DNA of 64,000 bases from Pirellulales bacterium. Lineage in GTDB: Bacteria > Planctomycetota > Planctomycetia > Pirellulales > Thermoguttaceae. Below the pieces are notes generated by a model. It ran no database searches, was not told the DNA's origin, and was given only the letters and a program-made list of their open reading frames with translations. Shown piece after piece: positions 36,134-47,930 of this stretch (position 1 is the stretch's first letter; each line of letters opens with the position of its first letter). Location of the stretch: contig JAFGDS010000079.1 of NCBI GenBank assembly GCA_016931995.1, positions 1 through 64,000 on the forward strand. The letters are read 5' to 3'. A program made the position numbers and the translations under genes.

Positions 36134-36496
36134 GGGGGCGAACTGGATTCGACCGGGCAGCTAGAAGCGAAGGTGGCGTGCCGTGGTTGGTCAGCAGGCC
36201 ACGTTAAAAGCCGACCAAATAATCAATTGCCGAGGAAAACCTCGCAATGGCCGCCTAAATAAAGGCGTCCCCGGCCCAGAGCTTTCGCCAGAGAGGCTCG
36301 AAGGCCGGCCATCAATTCTGGCTCGTCCCGGGTCGACGCCGGCCACGCCCGAGACTAAACCAAGCTGCCGACTAGCCCGCCGGGGACCCCGTCGGTTGGG
36401 GCCCCAAAAGGCGAAGACGCGGAAATGATCCGACTACGCACGTAGAAGCCTTCGTGGAAATGTCGCGGGACGCGGGTTCGATTCCCGCCGCCTCCA
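36134..36496 (+). ncRNA. ssrA: Transfer-messenger RNA, tag AEENLAMAA
   Basis: Rescues stalled ribosomes. The 5' end GGGGGCGAACTGGATTCGAC is the standard tmRNA start. Acceptor GGGGGCG (36134-36140) pairs with CGCCTCC (36489-36495), discriminator A at 36496, and the T-arm is GCGGGTTCGATTCCCGC. The tag frame starts at GCC 36229 and ends with TAA at 36256-36258, reading A-E-E-N-L-A-M-A-A, close to the planctomycete-type tag. One-piece form, 363 bases, no encoded CCA. Its last 20 bases form the core of the attachment site for the adjacent element, which restores the sequence. Confidence 0.95.
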
Positions 36497-37886
36497 CTCC
36501 CCCCGTTGTGACTATCTGGACAGAACTGGACTGTTTGGACAAGTCGTGACTGGGGAACACGTTAGGGAGACTGAGATTTTCGGGGGGTGTCCAGTTTTTA
36601 CCCTCCTGTCCGGTGGATTCGGGGTTTGGGCGCGCCGCATTGCGCGCCGCCTTGGAGCCCGTCAAAGGCGTGGCGGCGTCCGGGGATGCGGCGAGGGGAG
36701 GCGCGCCAGGGGACACCACGTCGAGGGAAGCGCCGGCCGGGGACGTGTCCCCGGTGGCCGTGCCGGCGGCCCGCCGGAAGTCTTCGTCGGTCACCTGGAC
36801 GTAGTGCCGGGCGGCAATCGCCACGGTGTTCCCGATCCACTTGCAGACCGTGGTGATCGGGTACTCCCTGGCCAGGTCCGTTTCGCAGGACGCCCTCAGG
36901 GCGTGGAAGAGGCGGGGCCAGGGGGTCAGGCCGGCCCGCTTGACGATCTTCTCAAACGTGGTCCGCAGGTTGCAGTTCACCCACCCCCTGGGGCCGAGGG
37001 CGGCGGGCAGGTAGCGGTCCTCGGGCACGACGTGCGTCTGGCCCTCGGCGGCCATGGTCCACGCCTCCTCCAGGTAGGGCCGCAGGCGCGGGAACATGGG
37101 CACGCCGCGGTGGCCCTGGCCGTGCCGCTCCGTCTTGGGTGAGGTGACGGTCATGGCCCCATGGGCCCAGTCCAGGTCCGCCAGGCGCAAGCTGAGCGTC
37201 TCGGAGGGCGTCCGCAGGCCGCCGAATCGGGCCAGGGCGATGATCGTCCGCCAGACCCAATCCGGGGCCGCGTCGATCAGCCGCAGCGTGTCGGCCTCGG
37301 TGACGTAGTGCTGGCGTTTCCGCGGGTCGCCCCCGGCGTGGGAAACGTGGTCAAAGGGGTTGCGGTCGAGCCACTCCAGCATGACCGCATGGCCAAAGAA
37401 CTGCCGGGCGAACTGGAGACGCTTGTGGATGGTCGAATCGGCCAGGCCCTCGCCCTGGAGGTACTGGCGGAAACCCTCCGCCTCGGCCCGGCCGATCGAC
37501 CGGATCGACCGGCCGGCGCCGAAGTGGGTTTTGAGGCACCGGGCGACCTGGCCCCACACGACGAGCGTGGCGGGCTTGGCCTTGGGCCGGGCGGCCTTGA
37601 AGGCGTCGACCAGGGTGGCGACGGTGGCCCGGTGCCGCTCGGGGATCAGACCCGCGGCGGCCAGCTTGCGGGCCAAGGGGTCGGGCAGCTCCACGATCCG
37701 CCCGGTGGTCTTGGCCGAAAGGGGCTGGCCCAGCCGGCGGGACTCGAGGATGGATTCGACGAGGAGCTTGACCGAATCGGCCGCGTGCTGGGGCGTCTTG
37801 CCCAACCGCACCGCCCGCCGGCGTCCCTCCACGTCGGTAAAGACGATCCTCTTCGCCCCGCGGGCGTCTCTAATCACGCTGGCCAT
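36372..37886 (-). CDS. int: Tyrosine integrase 1, C-terminus read through attL into antisense ssrA
   Basis: Site-specific recombinase that presumably integrates the element at ssrA. Started at ATG 37886 it is 504 residues in the integrated state. Catalytic residues visible: Arg225 (GGLRTPSE), Lys251 (TSPKTERHG), His328 and Arg331 (FHALR), Tyr362 (AARHYVQV). A core-binding domain spans about 85-190. Residues 464-470 (VEAAGIE) are encoded by the attachment core. The final 34 residues (PASRDISTKASTC...) are antisense to the tmRNA. In the excised circle the frame would continue instead into 47868-47674 (64 residues). It overlaps the small upstream gene by 17 bases. Confidence 0.93.
   Translation of the reverse strand: MASVIRDARGAKRIVFTDVEGRRRAVRLGKTPQHAADSVKLLVESILESRRLGQPLSAKTTGRIVELPDPLARKLAAAGLIPERHRATVATLVDAFKAARPKAKPATLVVWGQVARCLKTHFGAGRSIRSIGRAEAEGFRQYLQGEGLADSTIHKRLQFARQFFGHAVMLEWLDRNPFDHVSHAGGDPRKRQHYVTEADTLRLIDAAPDWVWRTIIALARFGGLRTPSETLSLRLADLDWAHGAMTVTSPKTERHGQGHRGVPMFPRLRPYLEEAWTMAAEGQTHVVPEDRYLPAALGPRGWVNCNLRTTFEKIVKRAGLTPWPRLFHALRASCETDLAREYPITTVCKWIGNTVAIAARHYVQVTDEDFRRAAGTATGDTSPAGASLDVVSPGAPPLAASPDAATPLTGSKAARNAARPNPESTGQEGKNWTPPENLSLPNVFPSHDLSKQSSSVQIVTTGGVEAAGIEPASRDISTKASTCVVGSFPRLRLLGPQPTGSPAG
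36477..36498. repeat. attL core, 22 bases
   Basis: The 3' end of tmRNA (T-arm right half plus acceptor strand and two more bases), duplicated exactly at 47869-47890. Confidence 0.93.
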
Positions 37887-38121
37887 GGTTGGATTTGTCC
37901 ATGGAGTGGTGGAGTTTGCCCTTCGCCTTCTTAAAAAACCCCCAACTGAAGTCTGGGTCATTCGATTCCGGGACGTTATGACCCTCCTCAATAAGGTCAG
38001 TGAGGGTGTGACCGTACTCAAAACCACTTCCTACAAGGTTAATCAGTTCCTGGTTTGAAACGGTTTCCATCCAATCCCTCGCGGCCAGTGCTCCAGCCTT
38101 TTTTTGCTCACCCTGATTCAT
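37870..38121 (-). CDS. Small acidic protein upstream of integrase 1
   Basis: An 83-residue product. ATG 38121 is preceded by GGGAGGT at eight bases. Content: a charged N-terminus (MNQGEQKKAGALAARDWM), a central segment TVSNQELINLVGSGFEYG and a basic end. It overlaps the integrase start by 17 bases, so the two are probably co-translated; a recombination-directionality or regulatory role is possible, but there is no recognisable motif. Confidence 0.6.
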   Translation of the reverse strand: MNQGEQKKAGALAARDWMETVSNQELINLVGSGFEYGHTLTDLIEEGHNVPESNDPDFSWGFFKKAKGKLHHSMDKSNHGQRD

Positions 38122-38155
38122 CGCGGTTGACCTCCCAAATTCAATTTGAAAAACT

Positions 38156-38398
38156 CCCGGGGGCCGGTCTCAGGCCCCGGCCCCCGGGGTGGCGACGCGC
38201 GGGCCGGGTGACTACTCCGGCCCCGCGCCCGGCCGGCTTGAGAAACCGGCTCTTGGGCCACTACAACGTCCTTCCTCTTGTTTCAATTCCCCGGGGGCCG
38301 GGTGAGTGGTCCGGCCCCCGGGGTTGCGACGCGGGGCCGTTTCTAACCTCGGTCCCGCGCCACGGACATCCGGGCCGAATACAACGTCCTTCCTCTTG
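38156..38398. repeat. Two tandem 118-base modules with GC hairpins between the integrase genes
   Basis: Each module has a strong palindrome (38156-38188; 38289-38323, the latter a perfect 13-bp CCCCGGGGGCCGG inverted repeat with a 9-base loop), followed by variable GC-rich DNA and an identical ACAACGTCCTTCCTCTTG box (38263-38280 and 38381-38398). On the transcribed minus strand the box reads CAAGAGGAAGGACGTTGT. No frame of useful length. Possible recombinase arm sites, or transcript-processing signals. Confidence 0.75.
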
Positions 38399-38400
38399 GT

Positions 38401-39624
38401 TCAAACCATCGGCACCGCGTTCATCGCGCCGGCGACCATGTCGGGCCGAACGTAGTGGTTCATGGTCGTGCTGTTGATCGTGTGGCCCAGGGCCATTTGG
38501 GCCGCGCCCGGGTCGATCCGCCACAGCTCCGTGCCCAGGGCCTTGCGCAGTGCGTGGAACCCGAACCGGCGCGCCGGCGGAATCCTGGCCAGGCCAACGA
38601 GGGCCCGGCGAGGATCCTGCAGAGCCGGCAAACCATAGGGCCAGCCGATTATTGTGTCGCGGCGTCCGATGAGCCGCTCGAACGAGGCCAGGGCCTCCAG
38701 GGCGCCCGCGGAGAGGAAAAACCGATGGGGCTGGCCACCCTTGTACAAATCACCCGGAACGACAAGCCAATCATTCCCGAACTCGTCGCGCTCGACCCAA
38801 TCCCACTTGGCGGCCAGCACGCTGCCAATCCGCAGGCCGGTGTAAAACACAAACCGAATCAGTGCCTGCCACCACGCGCCACGCCTTGCGTCCCATTCCG
38901 CGCCGGCCAGGTCGCCCAGCCGCGCCGGGCTGGTCATCCTGTCGCAGGCGTCGATGATCCGGCGGATCTCGTCCACGGTGAAGGCGTCGAGCGTGATCTT
39001 CTTGCGGGCGCGGGGCACGCGGATGTAGGGCGCGTCGGGCAGGAGCCCGGCGGCGTCCGGAGAGTAACGGTTCCGCGGCCCGGCGCGGTCGAGGATGAAC
39101 TGGATATTTCGGCCGTGCCGGCGGATGGTGTTAGGAGAAATGGGTCTGGGTTCGGTCACCAAAATCCCCGGGCCTCGGCGCGAAGTTCTGTGGGAAAGAC
39201 CCATGATGAACGCCGCGCAGGTCTCGGCGCCGATGTTGGCCAGCGGTGGATTGCCGGTGTATTTGGCCCAAAACTTGAGCGACTCTTCGTATAGGTCGAT
39301 CGTGCGGGGCTTTGTGCCTGACGGATCGAGAAGGCAAGGCCGGATAAAGGACCGAAAAAACTCGGGCAAGGTCATTGTGACCGAAGGCGGCATTCGGGGT
39401 TCCGGCTCGGGCGCCCCGTCGATCGGCTCGAACGCGATATCCTCGACCGCCTCGGCAAGGAGCTTTTGCCATTCCTTTTTGTGGCGCTTGGTCCAATTCT
39501 TGACCGCGTCGTGGGTGACGCCCAGCTCGGCGGCCACGTCCCGCAGGACCATGCCCGTGGCGTGCAGCGTCGCGGCCCTGTGCATTTTGAGCCGGGTCAG
39601 AAAGCAGATCGTACCCGCCCGCAT
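38401..39624 (-). CDS. Tyrosine recombinase 2 with N-terminal HTH
   Basis: A 407-residue product; ATG 39624 follows GGGAGGGAG. The N-terminal helix-turn-helix (about residues 25-50, VLRDVAAELGVTHDAVKNW) is unusual for integrases. The SAM-like core-binding region is about 85-195. Catalytic set complete: Arg265 (YTGLRIGSVL), Lys295, His357 and Arg360 (FHALR), His381 (LGHTIN), Tyr391 (MNHYV). It is highly diverged from integrase 1. Its target may be element resolution or another site. It follows, on the same strand, the two small genes at 40344-39835. Confidence 0.9.
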   Translation of the reverse strand: MRAGTICFLTRLKMHRAATLHATGMVLRDVAAELGVTHDAVKNWTKRHKKEWQKLLAEAVEDIAFEPIDGAPEPEPRMPPSVTMTLPEFFRSFIRPCLLDPSGTKPRTIDLYEESLKFWAKYTGNPPLANIGAETCAAFIMGLSHRTSRRGPGILVTEPRPISPNTIRRHGRNIQFILDRAGPRNRYSPDAAGLLPDAPYIRVPRARKKITLDAFTVDEIRRIIDACDRMTSPARLGDLAGAEWDARRGAWWQALIRFVFYTGLRIGSVLAAKWDWVERDEFGNDWLVVPGDLYKGGQPHRFFLSAGALEALASFERLIGRRDTIIGWPYGLPALQDPRRALVGLARIPPARRFGFHALRKALGTELWRIDPGAAQMALGHTINSTTMNHYVRPDMVAGAMNAVPMV

Positions 39625-39834
39625 TGCTCCCTCCCCGCCGCGCCCGGTCAGCTCGAGCGCAGCAAAAAAGCCGCAGGCCCCGACCATCTGTGTTGAGGCA
39701 CTACGAGGAGTGCCCGCGCGTCTTCGCAGAACGCGCCAGGTGGTCGAGGCTTGCGGCCTTTTTCCGACATGCTGTTACCTCGTATCCGCCGAAGCGGTTT
39801 CAACACCCGCATTATCATCCCGTCCTGGAATCCG
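39625..39834. other. Gap, no supported gene
   Basis: Between the small zinc protein stop and recombinase 2. A possible 64-residue frame (39648-39842) has no ribosome binding site and no coding character. Confidence 0.5.
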
Positions 39835-40098
39835 TCAACCACCCCCGGCCGATTTTCGGGCCGCCTCGGCCCGGCACGCCAGGCAGGGCCAGACCTCCAT
39901 CCAACGCTGGCAAACTGGGCAACAGTAGGGAACCACGTAAAAATGGCCCGGCGGCGTCCGGCGGTAGTGTTTTTCGACGCAAATGGCCAGGCCGGCGGCC
40001 CGGGCCAGCCGGGCCAGCTCGCGACTCCAGCCGGCCATGCCCGCCCGTTGGATCAGGGCGGCCAGTTCACGAAAGGTTGGCAGCCGGCCCACGGTCAT
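39835..40098 (-). CDS. Small protein with two CxxC motifs
   Basis: An 87-residue product ending with a zinc-ribbon-like pair: YCCPVCQRW and PCLACRAEAA. The N-terminal half is helical (TFRELAALIQRAGMAG). It starts three bases after the preceding gene's stop. Probable DNA- or RNA-binding phage accessory protein (inference). Confidence 0.65.
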   Translation of the reverse strand: MTVGRLPTFRELAALIQRAGMAGWSRELARLARAAGLAICVEKHYRRTPPGHFYVVPYCCPVCQRWMEVWPCLACRAEAARKSAGGG

Positions 40099-40101
40099 GG
40101 G

Positions 40102-40344
40102 TCAGTTTCTCCGGGCCACGATCAGCCGGGTCAACCGCCGGGCATCGTCCACGATCGACTGGATCTCCTCGGCCCAACGCCGGGCCGGGGCCACGGGCTC
40201 GTCCAGGGTCCAGGTAAGGACCTTCGCCACGTCGCGGGCCGTCATCGCCATGCAGTGGAGATCCCCGCAGGGCTCGTCCGCCGCGGCCAGCGCGAACTCC
40301 ATCATGGCGTCCCGCGCCGCCTGGATATCTTCCTCCGGTCGCAT
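40102..40344 (-). CDS. Small helical protein of unknown function
   Basis: An 80-residue, largely helical product (MRPEEDIQAARDAMMEFALA; PARRWAEEIQSIVDDARRLT). It is tightly linked to the zinc-motif gene downstream and 39 bases after the long coiled-coil gene. No recognised family. Confidence 0.6.
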   Translation of the reverse strand: MRPEEDIQAARDAMMEFALAAADEPCGDLHCMAMTARDVAKVLTWTLDEPVAPARRWAEEIQSIVDDARRLTRLIVARRN

Positions 40345-40383
40345 GGCAACCCCCGGTCCCCAATCCGCAATACCTTACCAAAA

Positions 40384-42246
40384 CTACTGGAAAATGTCCT
40401 CCGGCCGGCGTACCCGCTCGTTGACCGCCGGGGCCACGCTCCGGCCCGGGGCGGCCGGCGTCGACCCGGGCGCGGCGGCCTGGGTCTTGTCGGCCAGCGC
40501 GTGGGTGAGCGCTTCGAGCTTGTCCCCGTTTGATTTGAGCTGGTCGATGAGCCGGCGGGTTTCGTCGCTCTGGATGAACGACGATTCCAGGCCCCGTTGC
40601 GCTTCGCGGACGGTGGCCAGGGTCTTGCCCGGCGCGGCCAGGCGCTCTTGCTCGACCACCAGCCGCTCTTTCTCGGTGTCGAGCCGCCGCATATTCGCGA
40701 GCTGGTCCTCGAGGATTTGCGCTTGCTGGAGCCGGCCGGGGTCGGTGGTCAGGTCGGGCCCCGTGCGGGGATCGGTTCCGCCGATGGGGATTTCGCTCGG
40801 CATGGCCCGCCGGCGCGACGGGAACCGCAGCGAGAGCATTTGCTGGCGGAGCCGTTGCTCGAACACGTCGCGGCCCGTCTTGCCGCCGGGGATGTTTTCG
40901 GCCAGGGACCAATCCAGGCCCGCTTCGGTGCGTTCCACGTAGCTCGCGCCCGCCTCGGCCAGCAATTCATCCATTTTCTCTTTCGACCAGTCGGCCGACG
41001 CGGCCCGCTCCATGCCGGCCTTGGTCGAGCGGAGCTTGCCGAGAGTGGCTTCGTGCTGAATCTGGCTTTCCACCACCTTCGCGCGGAACGTGCCGGCGAT
41101 TTCCTTCTCGAGGTCCCGCACGCCGCGGGCCAGCTCCTTGGGCGGGCGCTGCATCGCGGGCAACGACTCCTCAAAGTACTTCCGGGCGTAGAGCGGGCGC
41201 CCGCCCTCCTCCTGCATCAGCTCTTGCGAGGGCGTCCCGCCGGCCATGCTGATTGCCGCGGCCTTGCCCTTCACGCGCATTTCGAGCCCTTGCGTGAATT
41301 CCTCGCGCTCGAGCGGGTGGGCCGAGAGGTACTCTTGGCGCTCCTTGACAGTGCGGAGCCCCGTCCCTTTCCGGAGGAGCCGCCGCTTGCCCTTCTTCAC
41401 CTCGAAGGTGTCTTTCTCGGGCAGGAACGCGCGGAGCTGCTGTTCGTACTGTTCGGCCGCCTGGGTGGAAATGTTGCCCTCGGGATCCTCCATCGCTTGC
41501 GAAAACGCGGTCGCCAGGGCCAGGGCCTCGGGCAGGGCGACGTTCCCGCCGGCGGCCATGCGGACCGCGCCGGGGATCGTGTTCGTGGCGACCTTCTCCG
41601 TGGACGTGCTCCGCGATTGGGCGACGGTGGCCATAAGATAGCCGGCGTTGACTCGCGGGTCTTTCGTGCCCGACGCTTTTTCCATGCCCGCGATTGCCTT
41701 GGCCACGGCCAAGCGCTCCTCGGGATTGTCGGGGACCAGGCGTTGGGATTCGTGCAGGATGTCCAGGACGCGGTCGTAGCCGGCGCGGTCCTTCGCGCCG
41801 GTCGCGCTAATGACCTCGCCCGCCTCGCGACGGAGCTGGTCGAGCCCGCCGGAGCGCGGCGCGCGGGCTTGCATGGCGGCCAGCTCTTTCTCGAACCAGG
41901 CACGATCCTCCTTCGTTGCCCCGCCCATCATCCGTTTGAGATTCGCTTCCGACGTGAAGCCGGCGGCAAAGTGTTCCTGAGCCTTCTTGGCCAGCTCGGC
42001 GCGCTCTCGCTCGGCGGCCATGACCATGCGGATTGCGGAATGAACGGACAGATAGCCGGCGGCCGTGGCGGCCAGGCCCTTCACCCAGTTGGCCATGCCC
42101 TCGACAGCCGAGGTCGATCCGCTCCGGCTCGCCTGTGCCAGCCGTCGATTCTGCTCGATGAGCTTCGTGTTTTCCTTCTCCAGCCGGTGCATGGCCGATT
42201 CGACCTGCTCGATCCGGGCGGAAAAGGTGAGATCTACGTTACCCAT
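40384..42246 (-). CDS. Long coiled-coil structural protein (tape-measure-like candidate)
   Basis: A 620-residue product started at ATG 42246 (MGNVDLTFSARIEQVESAMH). Order of features: heptad-rich helix with KENTKLIEQNRRLAQ (about 20-45), hydrophobic segment (WVKGLAATAAGYLSVHSAIRM), long alpha-helical body, and a C-terminal helix (LQQAQILEDQLANMRRLD). An N-terminal coiled coil, a hydrophobic stretch and a helical rod are typical of tail tape-measure proteins, but no tail genes are nearby and the length is short. The start is directly preceded by a 39-base CGAATCCCGAACCCC repeat, so no ribosome binding site is seen. Confidence 0.55.
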   Translation of the reverse strand: MGNVDLTFSARIEQVESAMHRLEKENTKLIEQNRRLAQASRSGSTSAVEGMANWVKGLAATAAGYLSVHSAIRMVMAAERERAELAKKAQEHFAAGFTSEANLKRMMGGATKEDRAWFEKELAAMQARAPRSGGLDQLRREAGEVISATGAKDRAGYDRVLDILHESQRLVPDNPEERLAVAKAIAGMEKASGTKDPRVNAGYLMATVAQSRSTSTEKVATNTIPGAVRMAAGGNVALPEALALATAFSQAMEDPEGNISTQAAEQYEQQLRAFLPEKDTFEVKKGKRRLLRKGTGLRTVKERQEYLSAHPLEREEFTQGLEMRVKGKAAAISMAGGTPSQELMQEEGGRPLYARKYFEESLPAMQRPPKELARGVRDLEKEIAGTFRAKVVESQIQHEATLGKLRSTKAGMERAASADWSKEKMDELLAEAGASYVERTEAGLDWSLAENIPGGKTGRDVFEQRLRQQMLSLRFPSRRRAMPSEIPIGGTDPRTGPDLTTDPGRLQQAQILEDQLANMRRLDTEKERLVVEQERLAAPGKTLATVREAQRGLESSFIQSDETRRLIDQLKSNGDKLEALTHALADKTQAAAPGSTPAAPGRSVAPAVNERVRRPEDIFQ

Positions 42247-42374
42247 GGTTCGGGACTCGGGGTTCGGGATTCGGGGCTTGGGGTTCAAAGGGGCCCGCCG
42301 CGGCGCTCTTCCAACACCGCGGCGGGCGGGCGCGGCCCGTCGATGCACTCCTTTTGGAGCCGGGCCGCTCGCGA

Positions 42375-43970
42375 CTACTCTTCGCTGCCGGTTCCGTCGT
42401 TGCGAACGACGCCTCTGAAATCGTTCATCGCGACCGCAAACCTGCCTTCAACTTGGAAAACCCGGCAGTTATTCTGCGGGCTGAAGTAGGAGCGCTGGCG
42501 CATCACCTCGAAACCTTCCTGGTACACGTAGACGATCGAACGTCCGGCACGCGGGGGAGCAAAGCCGTAATAGGCTGTGGCCGAAACCGCGTCCAGGCCC
42601 GTTTCGACCACGTAATCGACCTCGCCTCGGAACGGGTTGGCGGCGCCGGCCGACGTGGGCGTCACGTTCAAATCGACTCGCAAGAGCTTTTGCGTCGTGG
42701 TCTCCAGCGCGGAGGGAACGAGAAGCAAACTCAGCGGCAGCCCCGCGCGGCGCTTGCCGGCCAGGCCCATTTGCTGCCGAAGAAGAAGCCGCATGGCGTC
42801 CAGTTGCGCGACGCTGGGCGGCGCGCCGGGCGTCTGGAGGTTGGTGTGCTCGGCGTCAATAAGCGGATAGCCGTCGATGCATTCTTCGTTGCCGGTTAGG
42901 AGCCGGAGGCACAATGAATTGAGTGTGTGGTCGTGCGCGGCCACCTTGTCGGCCAGGGCCTCGGCGAACGCGCCCAGGTTATCGTCGAGGATCATCCGCG
43001 GGGTGAGCGCGAACTCGTCCCCATAGCTCTCGACTTGGATCGATTGGTAGCTCTCGGGGAAGGTGGATTGCTCGAAGTCGTGGCCGTCGACGTGCTGGGG
43101 CAACTCCCCGAACTCGCCCAGCCGCAGGATCGTGGCCGGCTTGAAATTGGGGACGCTCTTGAGCTGGTGGGCCCAGCGGCGGAACGTCGTGCCGGTGTAC
43201 TGCATCGCGCCCTCCACGATTTTGTTCGCGGCGGCCGAGAGGATGTTCGGAAAATCGCCCGGCGTGCCGTAGGGCACGTCCGCCCCGTACACCTCGCGGA
43301 CGGCCTCGGGGTCGCCCAGGCACGCCGCGGCGACGGTGTGCCGGGGAACGGACACGTACCGGCCCGTCTTGGCCTCGGCCAACTCTTTCATCGCGCTTAT
43401 CGGGCCAATCGCGCGCTCGGCCAGCCGGCCGGCGAAGTGGTCCCGAACCTTTTCCGCCTCGCTCGGGCCGACCGGCCGCGGCGCGTCCGCCTGGAAATTG
43501 CGGCGGCCGTGCGGGTAAAGACGATCCTCGCGTTGGATCACGGTTTCGTTCGCCGCGAGATACTCTTGATTCGCGCGCTCGACCTGGGCCGCGCGCTCGG
43601 GTGAAATCGTTGTGGACATGTCGGTTTCCTTTCCGCCGGTGGCTGCCGGCGCACGGTGATGGTTGCGACCCGCCGCGCCCATCGCGGAGGTCATGTTTGC
43701 TTCGGCGCGGATCGGCTCGACCGAAACGCCCGCCTCGGCCAGCTCGTTTTCGAGCGCGGCGATTTCTTGTTGCCCGCGCAAGCGGGCCCTCGCGCGAATC
43801 AATTGGTTAAGGTAGTCCTCCTGGCCGGCTGTCACGATCATCTTCTCGGCGTGCGGTCTCACGTCGGACGATGGGTACTCCTCGCGGATCAGCTCGGTCT
43901 CTTGGTTCGTGCTGCTGGTTTGTACCGCGACATTTGGAGCAAGGTAACGGACGTTCGTGGGCGTGCTCAT
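42375..43970 (-). CDS. Major capsid protein candidate, Mu gpT-like, with N-terminal extension
   Basis: A 531-residue product. Residues from about 180 on fit gpT/HK97-type major head subunits: the segment QSIQVESYGDEFALTPRMIL followed by DDNLGAFAEAL and then ADKVAAHDHTLNSLCL is the most typical; a spine-helix and the C-terminal FEVMRQRSYFSPQNNCRVF follow. Residues 40-85 are charged and helical (QEDYLNQLIRARARLRGQQE), like a scaffolding or delta domain. ATG 43970 has AGAGGGG upstream. An in-frame ATG at 43619 (residue 118, MSTTISPERAAQ) also has a strong site (GGAAAGGAAA), so a shorter capsid may be made from the same gene. Function is inferred, not proven. Confidence 0.6.
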   Translation of the reverse strand: MSTPTNVRYLAPNVAVQTSSTNQETELIREEYPSSDVRPHAEKMIVTAGQEDYLNQLIRARARLRGQQEIAALENELAEAGVSVEPIRAEANMTSAMGAAGRNHHRAPAATGGKETDMSTTISPERAAQVERANQEYLAANETVIQREDRLYPHGRRNFQADAPRPVGPSEAEKVRDHFAGRLAERAIGPISAMKELAEAKTGRYVSVPRHTVAAACLGDPEAVREVYGADVPYGTPGDFPNILSAAANKIVEGAMQYTGTTFRRWAHQLKSVPNFKPATILRLGEFGELPQHVDGHDFEQSTFPESYQSIQVESYGDEFALTPRMILDDNLGAFAEALADKVAAHDHTLNSLCLRLLTGNEECIDGYPLIDAEHTNLQTPGAPPSVAQLDAMRLLLRQQMGLAGKRRAGLPLSLLLVPSALETTTQKLLRVDLNVTPTSAGAANPFRGEVDYVVETGLDAVSATAYYGFAPPRAGRSIVYVYQEGFEVMRQRSYFSPQNNCRVFQVEGRFAVAMNDFRGVVRNDGTGSEE

Positions 43971-44309
43971 TTGCTATCCCCTCTTTGGGTCAAAACCCAA
44001 AAAAACGACCCTGATGATGATGACGCGCGAACCTTCCCCCCCGCGCCTCGGCGACCCACCCCCGTCAAAAAAACGACCATGGTGGTGGTGGCATGGAAAA
44101 AACTCGTCGCGCGCCAAAACGGCGCCATCCCGGGGGTCCCGTTCGGCCGCACACCCCCCCGGGTAGGACCCAGGAGGGTCGGGTTGGCGGGCCGGGTCGG
44201 GATGGTCGCAAGTGCTTGCATGGCAACGTGTTAAGTGAAATAACAGCCGGCGGGGAAACGATCGGGAAACCCCGCCGGCTGGATCGACGGGGCGCGCGAC
44301 CGCCCCGGA
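43971..44309. terminator. 339-base gap with an 11-bp inverted repeat
   Basis: AGCCGGCGGGG (44245-44255) and CCCCGCCGGCT (44270-44280) form a strong hairpin just after the coiled-coil gene stop on the minus strand. There is no T-run, so it may be a processing or attenuation structure upstream of the capsid gene. The rest (43971-44244) shows no supported gene. Confidence 0.4.
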
Positions 44310-45113
44310 TCAGGGCTGGAGCTGTTGGGCCTCGAGCTGGCGGATCCGATCGGTGAACCCGTCGATGCGCGACTGGAGGCGGTCAATTTCCTGGGCGGCC
44401 CGGGCGGCCACGGAGCCGCCGGCCTGGGCCCGGGATAGTTCGTTCTTGGCCAGGTCGATCAGTTGCCGCTGGAGCTTCGACCGGAGGGCGAGGGCACGTT
44501 GGCGCCGTTGCTCGACGCCGGCCGGATCGCCCGCTGGCCAGCTTCCGGCGGCCAAGTGGGGATTGGCTTCTCGGATTGCGGGGTGGGGCAAGCGGAGGAA
44601 TCTTACGAAGTCATCGTCGCTCACCTCGCCGGCCTCCCACCGTGCAAGCCGCGCTCGCCACTCGTCCGCGGTGTCGGCCGCGCCGACTTGGGATTGCCAA
44701 TACGCGAGTTGCTCGTGGGTCTTTGCGATTTGCCGTTTCAAGTGGTGGATTTCGGCGGCCAACTCGGCCGGGGCCGTGTCGAGCAACTCGCGGCGGGCGC
44801 GGTCGATCCGGTCGCGGGCGGCCACCTCGGCCTTTGCCCTCGGCGGAGTCACGTCGGTCTTTCCGCGCTCGATATTGAGCTTGTCGAACAGCTCGAAGAG
44901 GTCGTACAGGTGGGCCTCGCCCTTGACCAGGTCGGCCAGCTTTGGGCCGCGGGGCAGCTCGATTCGGTTGGGCAAACTCTCCGCGGCCTCGAGCGCGGCC
45001 TCTGCCGCGTGCAGCTCGTCGACCAGCTTTTGCCGGGCCTCTTTGCCGGGCCTCTTTGGCGGGTTTTCCGCGCGTTTCGCGGTCTGGGCTTTGATCGGTG
45101 TCGCGGTTGCCAT
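44310..45113 (-). CDS. Coiled-coil protein, scaffold-like
   Basis: A 267-residue product; ATG 45113 follows AAAGGA. Almost entirely charged helix: KEARQKLVDELHAAEAALEA; AEIHHLKRQIAKTHEQLAYW; and a C-terminal LQSRIDGFTDRIRQLEAQQL. Its position immediately upstream of the capsid gene suggests a scaffolding or head-maturation role (inference). Confidence 0.65.
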   Translation of the reverse strand: MATATPIKAQTAKRAENPPKRPGKEARQKLVDELHAAEAALEAAESLPNRIELPRGPKLADLVKGEAHLYDLFELFDKLNIERGKTDVTPPRAKAEVAARDRIDRARRELLDTAPAELAAEIHHLKRQIAKTHEQLAYWQSQVGAADTADEWRARLARWEAGEVSDDDFVRFLRLPHPAIREANPHLAAGSWPAGDPAGVEQRRQRALALRSKLQRQLIDLAKNELSRAQAGGSVAARAAQEIDRLQSRIDGFTDRIRQLEAQQLQP

Positions 45114-45167
45114 GTTGTCGGGTCCTTTCGTCGTGGGATGGTGGTGACGCGCCCAAAAACTGGGCGG

Positions 45168-45518
45168 TCATGTTGGTGGTTCGGCCGGCGGTCGGGCGAC
45201 CCAAACGGTCGCCCACCTGCCGGACTGTGTTTGTCGGCGGCGGCCCGAGTCCACGACCACGCCGGCTTGGACCAGCTCGACCCGCCGGGCACGGCTCGTA
45301 TCGCTCAGCAGGCCCGTGGTGATCGAAACCTCGGGGTCGGTCATCCCCTCGGCGCCGGCGGCCCGAATCGCGTGGTAAACCACGCTGCGGAGCCGATTGC
45401 CTTCGGGGCGGATTCGTCGCTGCGCCTCGGCCCGGCACCCGCCCGGCCCCGCCCGCGCCGGCAACGGCGGCGGTGGCGCCTCGGGCGCGAACGGCAATGT
45501 GGTTTGGTGCTCGGTCAT
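45168..45518 (-). CDS. Winged-helix-like small protein
   Basis: A 116-residue product. Pro-rich N-terminus, then a winged-helix pattern (MTDPEVSITTGLLSDTSRAR, RVELVQAGVVVDSGRR, QTQSGRWATVWVA). Its ATG overlaps the stop of the preceding gene (ATGA), so translation is coupled. Probably DNA-binding. Confidence 0.7.
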   Translation of the reverse strand: MTEHQTTLPFAPEAPPPPLPARAGPGGCRAEAQRRIRPEGNRLRSVVYHAIRAAGAEGMTDPEVSITTGLLSDTSRARRVELVQAGVVVDSGRRRQTQSGRWATVWVARPPAEPPT

Positions 45519-46384
45519 ACTACGGCCTCCTGCTTCGCGCGGCCGTTCGCGCCGGGCGCGGCCAGCGGTTCGCGCAACTCGATCTGGCTCAAGAGCTGGC
45601 CCCAGGAGGTGGGCGGGGAGAGCCGCGTCGCGGACCGCTTGAGAACGCGGGTAAGGTAAGCGATGGGCGCGGCCAGGTCGTCGCCCCGCCGCTTCCGCAT
45701 GGCCTCCAGGCCGCCGACGAGCCAGCTCTCGGGCGCCACATGCCGAAGATGGATCGCCGCGAGCTTCAGCAGAACCTCCCGGTCCTCGGCCGTTTTGTAC
45801 GGCACGAGTCCGCAGAACGTCTTGCGCGCGAACTCTCTTACAAGATCCAACTCCTCTCCTGTTATCACATATACATGGTCGACACGACTCGACCCGACCT
45901 CGGGCTCGGGCTCGGGCTCGGGCTCGGGTTCGGGCTCGGGTTCGGGCTCGGGATTCGCCATAGTCTTTCGAGAGGCTTCGGCGAAGGCTTTGCCAAAGCC
46001 TTCCGCAAAGGCTTTAACCTGTTGTGCCAGTTCATCTTTTAGCCGGCATTCGGGCAGCAAATCCATCAGGCCGGCCCACGATTTCACCACGTTAGGTGAC
46101 TCGGGCTTGTTGTATTTCAAAAAGTTGGGGACCCCAACGAAACAAGCCCTTTCGTCATGCTTCACCAAACCCTTCGCCAAGCCTTCCATAAAGGCTTCGG
46201 CGAAGGCTTCGGGCTGCCACCCCAACTCAGCGGCCAGCCCGGGAAGGGTCGCCCGCATCGCCCCCAGGGACGTGAGATGCGGGTGCGTCAAGACGAACAG
46301 GAAGGCGAGCTTTCCGCGATCCGACAGACCGCGGAATTTCTCGTCGTTCCATATTCTGGGATCAATCTTCCTGAAGCGGCCCAT
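45515..46384 (-). CDS. Phage replication-initiation-like protein with Pro-Glu linker
   Basis: A 289-residue product. N-terminal winged-helix-like domain (RIWNDEKFRGLSDRGKLAFL, TSLGAMRATLPGLAAELGW, CFVGVPNFLKYNKPESPNVV) resembles phage replisome organiser proteins. A (Pro-Glu)n linker of about nine dipeptides, from a hexanucleotide repeat at 45898-45955, separates it from a C-terminal helical domain (LVREFARKTFCGLVPYKTAE; WLVGGLEAMRKRRGDDL). It could load a host helicase. The linker length is likely variable between strains. Confidence 0.65.
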   Translation of the reverse strand: MGRFRKIDPRIWNDEKFRGLSDRGKLAFLFVLTHPHLTSLGAMRATLPGLAAELGWQPEAFAEAFMEGLAKGLVKHDERACFVGVPNFLKYNKPESPNVVKSWAGLMDLLPECRLKDELAQQVKAFAEGFGKAFAEASRKTMANPEPEPEPEPEPEPEPEPEVGSSRVDHVYVITGEELDLVREFARKTFCGLVPYKTAEDREVLLKLAAIHLRHVAPESWLVGGLEAMRKRRGDDLAAPIAYLTRVLKRSATRLSPPTSWGQLLSQIELREPLAAPGANGRAKQEAVV

Positions 46385-46387
46385 GGG

Positions 46388-46639
46388 TCACTCCGGACGG
46401 CGGCGCGGACGCCCGGCGGCGAGCCGCTTGCGGCCATTGGTTTTGCTGGTTGCGGCCGCGGACATGGGCAACTGCCGCCCGACGAACTCTCGGAGATCGA
46501 CCGCGCGAATCCGAATTCTCGACCGGACGCGGATGCCCGCTAAATCGCCGGTTTCAACGAGGCGATGGACGGTGCGCGGATGAACTCTCAGTTCTTCGGC
46601 CGCTTCCCCGACAGTCAAAACATCAAGACCAATCTTCAT
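46388..46639 (-). CDS. Excisionase/MerR-type HTH protein
   Basis: An 83-residue product; ATG 46639 follows GGGGAGGT. The fold pattern LTVGEAAEELRVHPRTVHRL, then VETGDLAGIRVRSRIRI, is that of the helix-turn-helix family used by excisionases and small regulators. Basic C-terminus. It starts the leftward cluster and is separated from the next gene by three bases. Confidence 0.82.
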   Translation of the reverse strand: MKIGLDVLTVGEAAEELRVHPRTVHRLVETGDLAGIRVRSRIRIRAVDLREFVGRQLPMSAAATSKTNGRKRLAAGRPRRRPE

Positions 46640-46805
46640 CAGAATGACCTCCCCTAGAAAAAAAGTGCGAATTGGAACGACGCGACCTAAAATGACGAGG
46701 GCGCGGCCGCGATGCAATCCGAATCCGCGCGCGACTTGCGCAACGATGCGCAACGATGCGCGTGGCGCTCGGGGAAAACCCCAGAAAAGTGCGTTGCGCC
46801 TGGCG
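46640..46805. promoter_or_regulatory. Candidate operator/promoter region of the element's leftward operon
   Basis: 166 bases before the excisionase-type gene. Direct repeats GCGCAACGAT / GCGCAACGAT near 46738-46760 and a GCGTTGCGCCTGGCGC stretch could bind the HTH protein. No clear -10 or -35 box. Confidence 0.35.
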
Positions 46806-47570
46806 CTAGAATCGTTCCCAATGGAACCGGTCCGGGCCGGTCCGAAAGGAGAACTTCATGCCGGTCAGCGCGCGATTCAGCGCGGACGCCATGCCGCGCA
46901 GTTCCTTCGGTCCCTTGAACTCCGCCAGAGGGCTCGGCAGGTCCGCCGGCCAACCGGCGCGCTGGAAGGCGTCCAGCACGGTGAATTGCTCCGGCGCGTC
47001 GCGCGGGTACTTCCGGGCCACCTTGCCACGGAAACTCAGCGTGCGGCCCTCGCGATTCCACGCGGGCGTGGAGGCATCGACGGGCGCGGGGCCTCTGGCC
47101 AACTCGAATTCCCGCCGGAGCATCGCCTCCACCGGGACTAATTCGTCGTGGCGCAGGCGGTCCAGGGCGCCGCCGGACAGACGTTCCCGCAGGGCCGCCG
47201 CGTCCCCGACGTGCCGACGCAAAAGCGCCTGGGCGAGGTACAGCACGTCCCCGGTCAACTCAAAGACCGCTTCGTGCGCCGACGTGCCGGCCTGCCCGCC
47301 GAGAACCACGGCCCGGGGCGCCGCGCGAAGAAACCGCCCACGGACCGCCGCGGACACGCTCTGGACCTGGGGCAAGACCTCGACCAACCGATTAAGGCTG
47401 TTGCGGACGCGCTGGGCCACCATGGGCGGCACGGCGGGATCGTCTTTGCCCGATCCATCCCGAAGGAACTGAATCCCATCGGCCAGCCAACGGAGGTTCT
47501 CCGCACAGACGAGAGCCAGTCGATGAGCCGTTTCCAACTCGTCCGGCTCGGGGCGACGAGACTTTGCCAT
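46806..47570 (-). CDS. Element protein of unknown function, C-terminal winged-helix-like
   Basis: A 254-residue product; ATG 47570 follows AGGGTAGG. The N-terminal half is helical (ETAHRLALVCAENLRWLADG; VRNSLNRLVEVLPQVQSV). The last 80 residues (FRGKVARKYPRDAPEQFTVL, DAFQRAGWPADLPSPL) look like a winged helix that I associate with planctomycete mobile regions. Role unknown. It is the rightmost complete gene of the element. Confidence 0.6.
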   Translation of the reverse strand: MAKSRRPEPDELETAHRLALVCAENLRWLADGIQFLRDGSGKDDPAVPPMVAQRVRNSLNRLVEVLPQVQSVSAAVRGRFLRAAPRAVVLGGQAGTSAHEAVFELTGDVLYLAQALLRRHVGDAAALRERLSGGALDRLRHDELVPVEAMLRREFELARGPAPVDASTPAWNREGRTLSFRGKVARKYPRDAPEQFTVLDAFQRAGWPADLPSPLAEFKGPKELRGMASALNRALTGMKFSFRTGPDRFHWERF

Positions 47571-47673
47571 GATCCTACCCTTTCAAGCGCCGGTCCAGCC
47601 GGCGGGCTCGGGAAGGGTAGGCGACCCGAAGCCGCGCCGGCCGGCAAGGGGTAGCTAGCCCCGACCGACAAAA

Positions 47674-47868
47674 TCAGTCTACCGACCGTCCCTCCTCCGT
47701 CGATGCCCCGGGGGCAAGAATCCCCAACCGCTGGAGAATCGCGCGGACGTTCTCGGGCACGTTTTCGAGCGCGTGGACCTCCTCCTCCGACAGCCACCTT
47801 TGGGGCGCGCCGGATTGCGCGCCGCCTGGACAAGAAAGGTGCCGTTTTCCCGAGGTTTCTTGCGATAA
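47674..47868 (-). pseudogene. Severed 3' coding end of integrase 1, stranded at attR
   Basis: This is an orphan protein-like stretch (QRWLSEEEVHALENVPENVR, AILQRLGILAPGAS) with no start of its own inside the element. It is in the same frame as the attachment core (VEAAGIE, then LSQETSGKRHL), and its stop is at 47674. In the circular form, the integrase gene (37886 down to 36477) would join it in frame at the core to give a 534-residue integrase. In the chromosome it can only be entered from host sequence to the right. Confidence 0.7.
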
Positions 47869-47890
47869 TTCGATTCCCGCCGCCTCCACT
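47869..47890. repeat. attR core, 22 bases
   Basis: Exact duplicate of 36477-36498. The left neighbour bases differ (GATAA instead of CGGG), so the match is limited to the core. Confidence 0.93.
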
Positions 47891-47893
47891 GAA

Positions 47894-47930
47894 AACGCCG
47901 CCGGCAGGCAGAACGCTTGCAGGCGGTGTT
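47894..47930 (+). terminator. Possible original ssrA terminator, displaced by the element
   Basis: AACGCCGCC pairs with GGCGGTGTT (nine pairs, one G-U) directly after attR, where the tmRNA 3' flank would lie in the empty site. A GGGGTTTCTT follows, a weak T-run. Position makes it interesting; the structure alone is modest. Confidence 0.35.

Follow-up and report, generated by a model that had tools for sequence, protein, structure and literature searches.

An integrase gene in a planctomycete genome very probably contains the attachment site (attP) of its own element, such that integration would leave the catalytic body of the enzyme in place and exchange its C-terminal tail. The gene, int1, is carried by an 11.4-kb element in a 64,000-nucleotide stretch of DNA from a Pirellulales bacterium (assembly GCA_016931995.1, contig JAFGDS010000079.1, positions 1 to 64,000 of the forward strand), hereafter the window, in which the element occupies the gene for transfer-messenger RNA (tmRNA), ssrA, and is bounded by two cores of 22 base pairs (bp). 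The evidence comes from the joined reading frame in the window, from related elements integrated at many transfer RNA (tRNA) and tmRNA genes, and from uninterrupted integrase genes on viral contigs.

The joined integrase gene in the window

The core, TTCGATTCCCGCCGCCTCCACT, is identical at 36477..36498 (the left site, attL) and 47869..47890 (the right site, attR), and this exact 22-bp match is not extendable on either side. ARAGORN places the tmRNA gene, the integration target, at 36134..36497 on the forward strand, and the left core is thus the 3' end of tmRNA. Int1 is encoded on the reverse strand (36372..37886) by an open reading frame (ORF) of 504 amino acids as integrated, and Pfam identifies it as a tyrosine recombinase through matches to PF00589 (6.3e-9, residues 195-367) and Phage_int_SAM_5 (1.5e-5). 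Its catalytic tyrosine is residue 362, and both H361 and Y362 are invariant in a three-member alignment. The frame crosses the core as VEAAGIE (residues 464-470) and then ends in 34 residues that are antisense to tmRNA. At the far end of the element a stranded tail of 64 codons and a stop (47674..47868, reverse strand) continues the same frame, and joining 37886..36477 to 47868..47674, as in the excised circle, stays in frame and yields an integrase of 534 amino acids. An earlier note had proposed this arrangement from the DNA alone; when recomputed, its coordinates and arithmetic for the core and the antisense ssrA end, its continuation at attR to 47674 and its joined product all proved correct, the frame break at the joined attP that it named as refuting was looked for in the window and is absent, and the body with Tyr362, which it had placed upstream of the core, stays in one ORF. 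The guanine-cytosine (GC) content at third codon positions is 0.71 in the tail versus 0.90 in the int body, a difference that calls for caution about the tail. Pfam and PHROGs gave no named family for the window's tail, and when six other tails were compared with Pfam two touched DUF1289 with E-values of 0.11 and 0.17, which are not credible. Phage records contained no match to Int1, and its sole match among plasmid records was from Sinorhizobium (27.5% over half of the protein).

Tails and arm repeats in related elements

An alignment of Int1 with two paralogs, used as the scan query, located 45 loci on genome contigs and 4 on viral contigs, and the integrase family was present (E 1e-40 or better) in 49 of 392 genomes sampled from the phylum. 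Of the places located in these genomes, 60 regions, none longer than 20 kb, were analyzed, and an overall set of 112 integrase ORFs was reduced to 98 non-redundant ones by removing 5 that had no alignable Tyr and 9 near-copies; the reduced set leaves out loci L002 and L003 and takes in the viral-contig loci L056, L058 and L059. An antisense tRNA or tmRNA gene (tDNA) lies at most 450 nucleotides from the ORF end in 82 of the 98. According to the ARAGORN calls, these are 76 tRNA genes for 12 amino acids and 6 tmRNA genes, the sole Thr call, at L119, being probably the wrong gene. The integrase ORF enters the tDNA in frame in 78 of the 82, the median stretch from Tyr to a point 12 nucleotides inside the tDNA being 70 codons, and the same stretch is open in the +1 frame in 9/82 and in the +2 frame in 7/82. 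At the 41 loci where the GC content of this linker is below 58%, the int frame is open in 38 and the other frames in 4 and 1. All three reading phases of the core are used (34, 28 and 16 of the 78 ORFs), and the linker from Tyr to core is mostly 43-103 residues long. A trait tree (FastTree, with rough labels) required 15 changes versus 25.2 in shuffles, and no single origin is claimed. Two family integrases lie ~8.8 and 14 kb apart at L102 (G216:C39) and at L108/L120 (G385), respectively, suggesting tandem elements; in the inner integrase at L102 the core is read in another frame and the ORF ends early.

When a distal core copy of at least 15 bp was required, 30 elements qualified as reconstructed attPs. 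The joined tail, core included, spans at least 49 codons in 26 of them, where the earlier note had named homologues at other sites without any such tail as refuting. Scored with whole-tail profiles trained on the other elements, the int frame was the best in 29/30 (L100 was unscored), with low values for L134 (-2.0 bits), L144 (-0.1) and L133 (4.7). The whole-tail profile also gave more than 10 bits to 12 of the 78 integrated ORFs, at profile positions 9-33, which are the arm codons. Because the right arm repeat (see below) codes a recurring GGAESGA, a hairpin-only profile was made from the part after the arm, leaving out each element in turn and counting scores above 3 bits as matches. With this profile the int frame matched in 24 of the 30 attPs and the other frames in none, the six without a match being the window, L133, L100, L108, L134 and L144; the search for tails in differently integrated relatives that the earlier note had called for thus bore out its expectation. 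The probability of finding 24/24 in the int frame under random framing is ~4e-12 if kinship among the elements is ignored, and none of the 78 integrated ORFs exceeded 5 bits. Differences between tails by codon position are 356/295/510, summed over 18 overlapping pairs, each of at least 45% identity.

The arms of the attP also lie in coding sequence. A 20-bp repeat common to both arms was reached by at most 1 in 100 shuffles in 24 of the 30 attPs, and in those 24 its copies are positioned 92-158 bp before the core and 36-62 bp after it, with one outlier at 166 on the latter side. In the window, the copies share 19/20 bases and are located within the int1 linker (36633..36652, from a core distance of -154) and within the tail (47808..47827, from a core distance of +41). 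By eye, the arm unit is GCGGYGCA N4 GCGGYGCA, an octamer with a period of 12 bp; an 11-bp period gave no signal. In 15 of these 24 attPs the reading frame differs between the left and the right copy, and it is therefore DNA, not protein, that keeps them alike there. We infer that the arm repeats are putative arm-binding sites of the integrase; by this sequence evidence the predicted attP, comprising left arm, core and right arm, is within the int gene.

Integrases that read through into a tail without interruption were found on viral contigs. Two further viral scans gave 70 loci with 71 integrase ORFs after second contig copies were removed, and a tail profile trained solely on reconstructed integrated elements detected the tail in eight contiguous ORFs (L057, L162, L210, L211, L176, L158, L226 and L177; 13.8 to 51.6 bits), in agreement with the suggestion of the earlier note that non-integrated copies might carry it. 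L210 and L211, equal in length, score and C-terminus, are probably copies, leaving seven distinct. Seven of the eight score 15.4-43.3 bits with the hairpin-only profile, and no tRNA was called beside any of them or beside the eighth. The L057 record is 35.7 kb long and classed as linear, and its 17-bp core occurs once, fitting a free attP. Conversely, the six viral ORFs beside an antisense tDNA (L059, L156, L157, L163, L166 and L204) have no tail by profile; at L059 a score of 9.6 bits falls in the linker at the arm codons, and the hairpin profile gives -1.0.

The integrases closest to Int1 are those of L011, L012, L013 and L014, of which the first three likewise reside in tmRNA genes. The L011 and L012 genomes each have an additional core copy, located on a separate contig, with a tail after it in the VEAAGIE frame. 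These tails, which were unused in training, score 29.7 and 55.4 bits, the other frames being below 0 or unscored, and they likely belong to the far ends of the L011 and L012 elements, whose contigs are unjoined. A 14-bp core considered for L011 is under the 15-bp limit and was taken as chance, the likely distal core being the copy on the other contig. The window's own genome contains orphan tails, found by the tail profile. Three of them follow cores matching the tRNA of a paralog (L003, Ser, 20 bp; L005, Val, 23 bp; L006, Val, 21 bp), and all three are in the frame used by that paralog. Another, L246, fits L002 in frame over just 11 bp of core and was counted as partial, and the fifth paralog, L004, stops upstream of its tDNA. 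In the same genome a 268-residue ORF without a Pfam hit (L249:790-1593) has a comparable helical motif at its end (..DLVRVIELWPTLAPRIRDAILALVDAAK), and the hairpin may thus be a wider module. The integrase halves of L005, L006, L007 and L008 are closely alike and each located at the end of a contig, and repeated elements probably break the assembly of this draft genome.

One free-form protein, the natural L057 integrase, was modeled with AlphaFold2 from a 38-row alignment in which seven rows are full-length. The mean predicted local distance difference test score (pLDDT) is 84 and the body is confident, its closest solved fold being lambda Int (1z1b, Foldseek E 1.7e-11). Residues 391-460 fall below 50 and are followed by two tail helices (463-474 and 477-489; block means of 80-94), which form a hairpin in the model. 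Judged from this model, the attP looks like a segment encoding a flexible linker, and the tail looks like a small two-helix hairpin.

Role of the tail and gene content of the element

Several observations weigh against an attP and a conserved tail within the gene. In the window, 46% of 64-codon stretches drawn at random lack a stop, and the open tail frame was consequently rejected as evidence. The window's tail scores 0.9 bits in the int frame with the hairpin-only profile, versus 0.7 and -0.7 in the other frames, and part of its whole-tail score (15.5 bits versus 0.1 and -3.4) comes from arm-repeat codons. Given these weak scores and the chance openness, the reality of the tail therefore rests on the relatives. 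Among those are true attPs that lack the tail: L100, L108 and L134 have good arm repeats but stop early in the joined frame, and either the tail is dispensable in these lineages or the elements have decayed. Four of the 82 integrase ORFs do not reach their tDNA, namely L096, L119 (whose C-terminus resembles an antisense tRNA missed by ARAGORN), L144 (whose integrase stops upstream of its core) and L145 (a paralog from the window's own genome). Among the viral ORFs, L226 scores 14.2 bits with the whole-tail profile and 0.7 with the hairpin-only profile, and many related viral-contig integrases stop shortly past Tyr and are tail-less. One rival reading takes the tails for chance open frames in GC-rich DNA that resemble one another through the arm repeats, and the random openness of the window, the recurring GGAESGA and the low hairpin score of the window are all compatible with this. 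However, where linker GC is low the int frame was far more often open than the other two, the arm-free hairpin-only test still returned 24, 0 and 0 of 30, and there are uninterrupted viral ORFs; such an origin, already contradicted for the family, we regard as barely plausible.

We moderately favor an explanation that comprises the architecture, the exchange and a functional step. When the element recombines into the 3' terminus of its target, a tRNA or tmRNA gene, the body and the left arm stay at attL, in an ORF that ends in antisense tDNA, and the tail is stranded at attR, separated from the int start codon by the length of the element. The full int gene would be restored by excision. The integrated tail is far from the int start, and therefore the free phase is where selection on it most likely operates. 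The hairpin would be used in that state, most likely aiding full-length Int in integration or in assembly on attP. The Int of the lysogen, lacking the tail though not the active site, would be weaker or altered and might serve excision together with an excisionase-like HTH_17 protein (46388..46753, reverse strand; Pfam HTH_17 6e-13, PHROG excisionase and transcriptional regulator 2.4e-7), a candidate directionality factor. The arrangement of the gene would in this way signal integration and favor one direction. The only codons from which a tail fragment could start in the integrated window are in-frame GTG and TTG codons late in the tail and a TTG in the chromosomal flank. That the tail governs the action of Int according to state we regard as an even call, and from this scheme we infer that it would control the direction of recombination.

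The exchange could also be real and devoid of a regulatory role, with attP placed near the 3' terminus of int because this is compact and lets int and attP travel together, and the tail being simply the natural end of the protein. The three tail-less attPs with good arms fit this account, as do the integrated forms, whose C-termini are antisense sequences that differ without relation among the many tDNAs and hence include no conserved integrated-form tail; moreover, an archaeal review proposes that an att site inside int makes a compact, exchangeable module (PMC8371274). We nevertheless consider it rather unlikely, as the tail is kept in frame in 24/30 attPs although the lysogen cuts it off from the int start, and as the integrated form of the phage Mx8 integrase reportedly differs in specificity, according to a review (PMC6070905). 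Alternatively, the tail may be a signal for degradation or for binding of a partner and set how stable or abundant Int is, in which case integration would alter the dose of Int and not direction. A parallel would be mycobacteriophage BPs, in which attP is said to lie in the repressor gene and integration reportedly removes a C-terminal degradation signal. The tail here, in contrast, is a predicted hairpin with a W..L motif, and we deem this role quite improbable. Within the directional explanation, we tentatively entertain a more specific version, in which the codons of a disordered linker, between the catalytic body and the conserved hairpin, contain the entire attP with its arms and core; the gene would itself be a directionality switch, and the hairpin-bearing enzyme would be produced only from free DNA. 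Because the linker tolerates all three antisense-tDNA frames, the family could change targets, from one tRNA gene to another or to tmRNA, and retain the switch.

Within the element (36499-47868), int1 is adjoined by a second tyrosine recombinase of 428 residues (38401-39687, reverse strand; PF00589 3.6e-9). The gene at 42375-43970 encodes a capsid/protease-like protein (PHROG major head and protease, 9.9e-58) and that at 45515-46384 a DnaD-like protein (9.1e-16), and no terminase or portal match was found among the ten element proteins scanned against Pfam and PHROG. The element is perhaps a capsid-bearing satellite or reduced prophage. Directly to the right of attR lies a strong stem-loop (47894-47930, forward strand; -30.5 kcal/mol for a 65-nucleotide stretch, z -2.9), which may be the original terminator of tmRNA, now 11.4 kb from the tmRNA gene.

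Comparison with known systems

The family rewrites its own C-terminus at integration and supplies many natural pairs of integrated and full-length enzymes, which makes it testable whether the direction of recombination depends on gene rearrangement as well as on an excisionase. There is a warning for annotation too, as integrase C-termini that end in antisense-tRNA strings (AAGIEP, GIRT) are chimeras; strings like AAGIEP we take to be antisense tRNA or tmRNA ends.

In phage lambda, attP lies outside the int coding sequence, and this sets it apart from the present family, which resembles it in the fold of the L057 model and in the arm sites around the core. Mycobacteriophage BPs is said to be alike in having attP in a coding gene whose C-terminus is changed by integration, and unlike in that the gene encodes the repressor and the lost tail is the degradation signal. 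The earlier note had likened int1 to the SSV-type suicidal integrases, and the likeness holds insofar as attP is located in the integrase gene and integration alters it. However, the SSV gene is split with the catalytic part in the C-terminal fragment, whereas here a single ORF retains the body with Tyr362 and the exchange affects the tail alone; phage Mx8 is the more apt parallel, since there too only the 3' end changes.

For Mx8, a review (PMC6070905) describes an attP within the int coding sequence, a new 3' end upon integration and an enzyme that is modified in specificity and not inactivated, with a similar principle for Mx9, and the Islander paper (PMC4383910) mentions integrases, such as the Mx8 and SSV enzymes, that reach across attP. 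A passage of a 2021 review (PMC8371274) calls self-disrupting recombinases exclusively archaeal; the bacterial precedent that we found described is Mx8, with Mx9. In Mx8, as in the window, the att core is inside the int ORF and integration gives a new 3' end, and the deposited Mx8 Int reads ..STGLEPV.., which is antisense-tRNA-like, before 112 further residues. The two integrases match weakly (BLASTP E 0.004, 28% over 106 residues) and have different Pfam central domains, and the Mx8 tail has no match to the tail profiles made here (0.6 and 1.5 bits). Among the open-licence papers listed for a planctomycete case or an in-gene attP we recognized none that describes this arrangement, and absence from print is not claimed. 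The principle is thus known from Mx8; the new aspect is its spread through the planctomycete phylum together with a conserved tail, predicted to consist of two helices, and unlike that of Mx8 the arrangement recurs over many elements and tDNAs.

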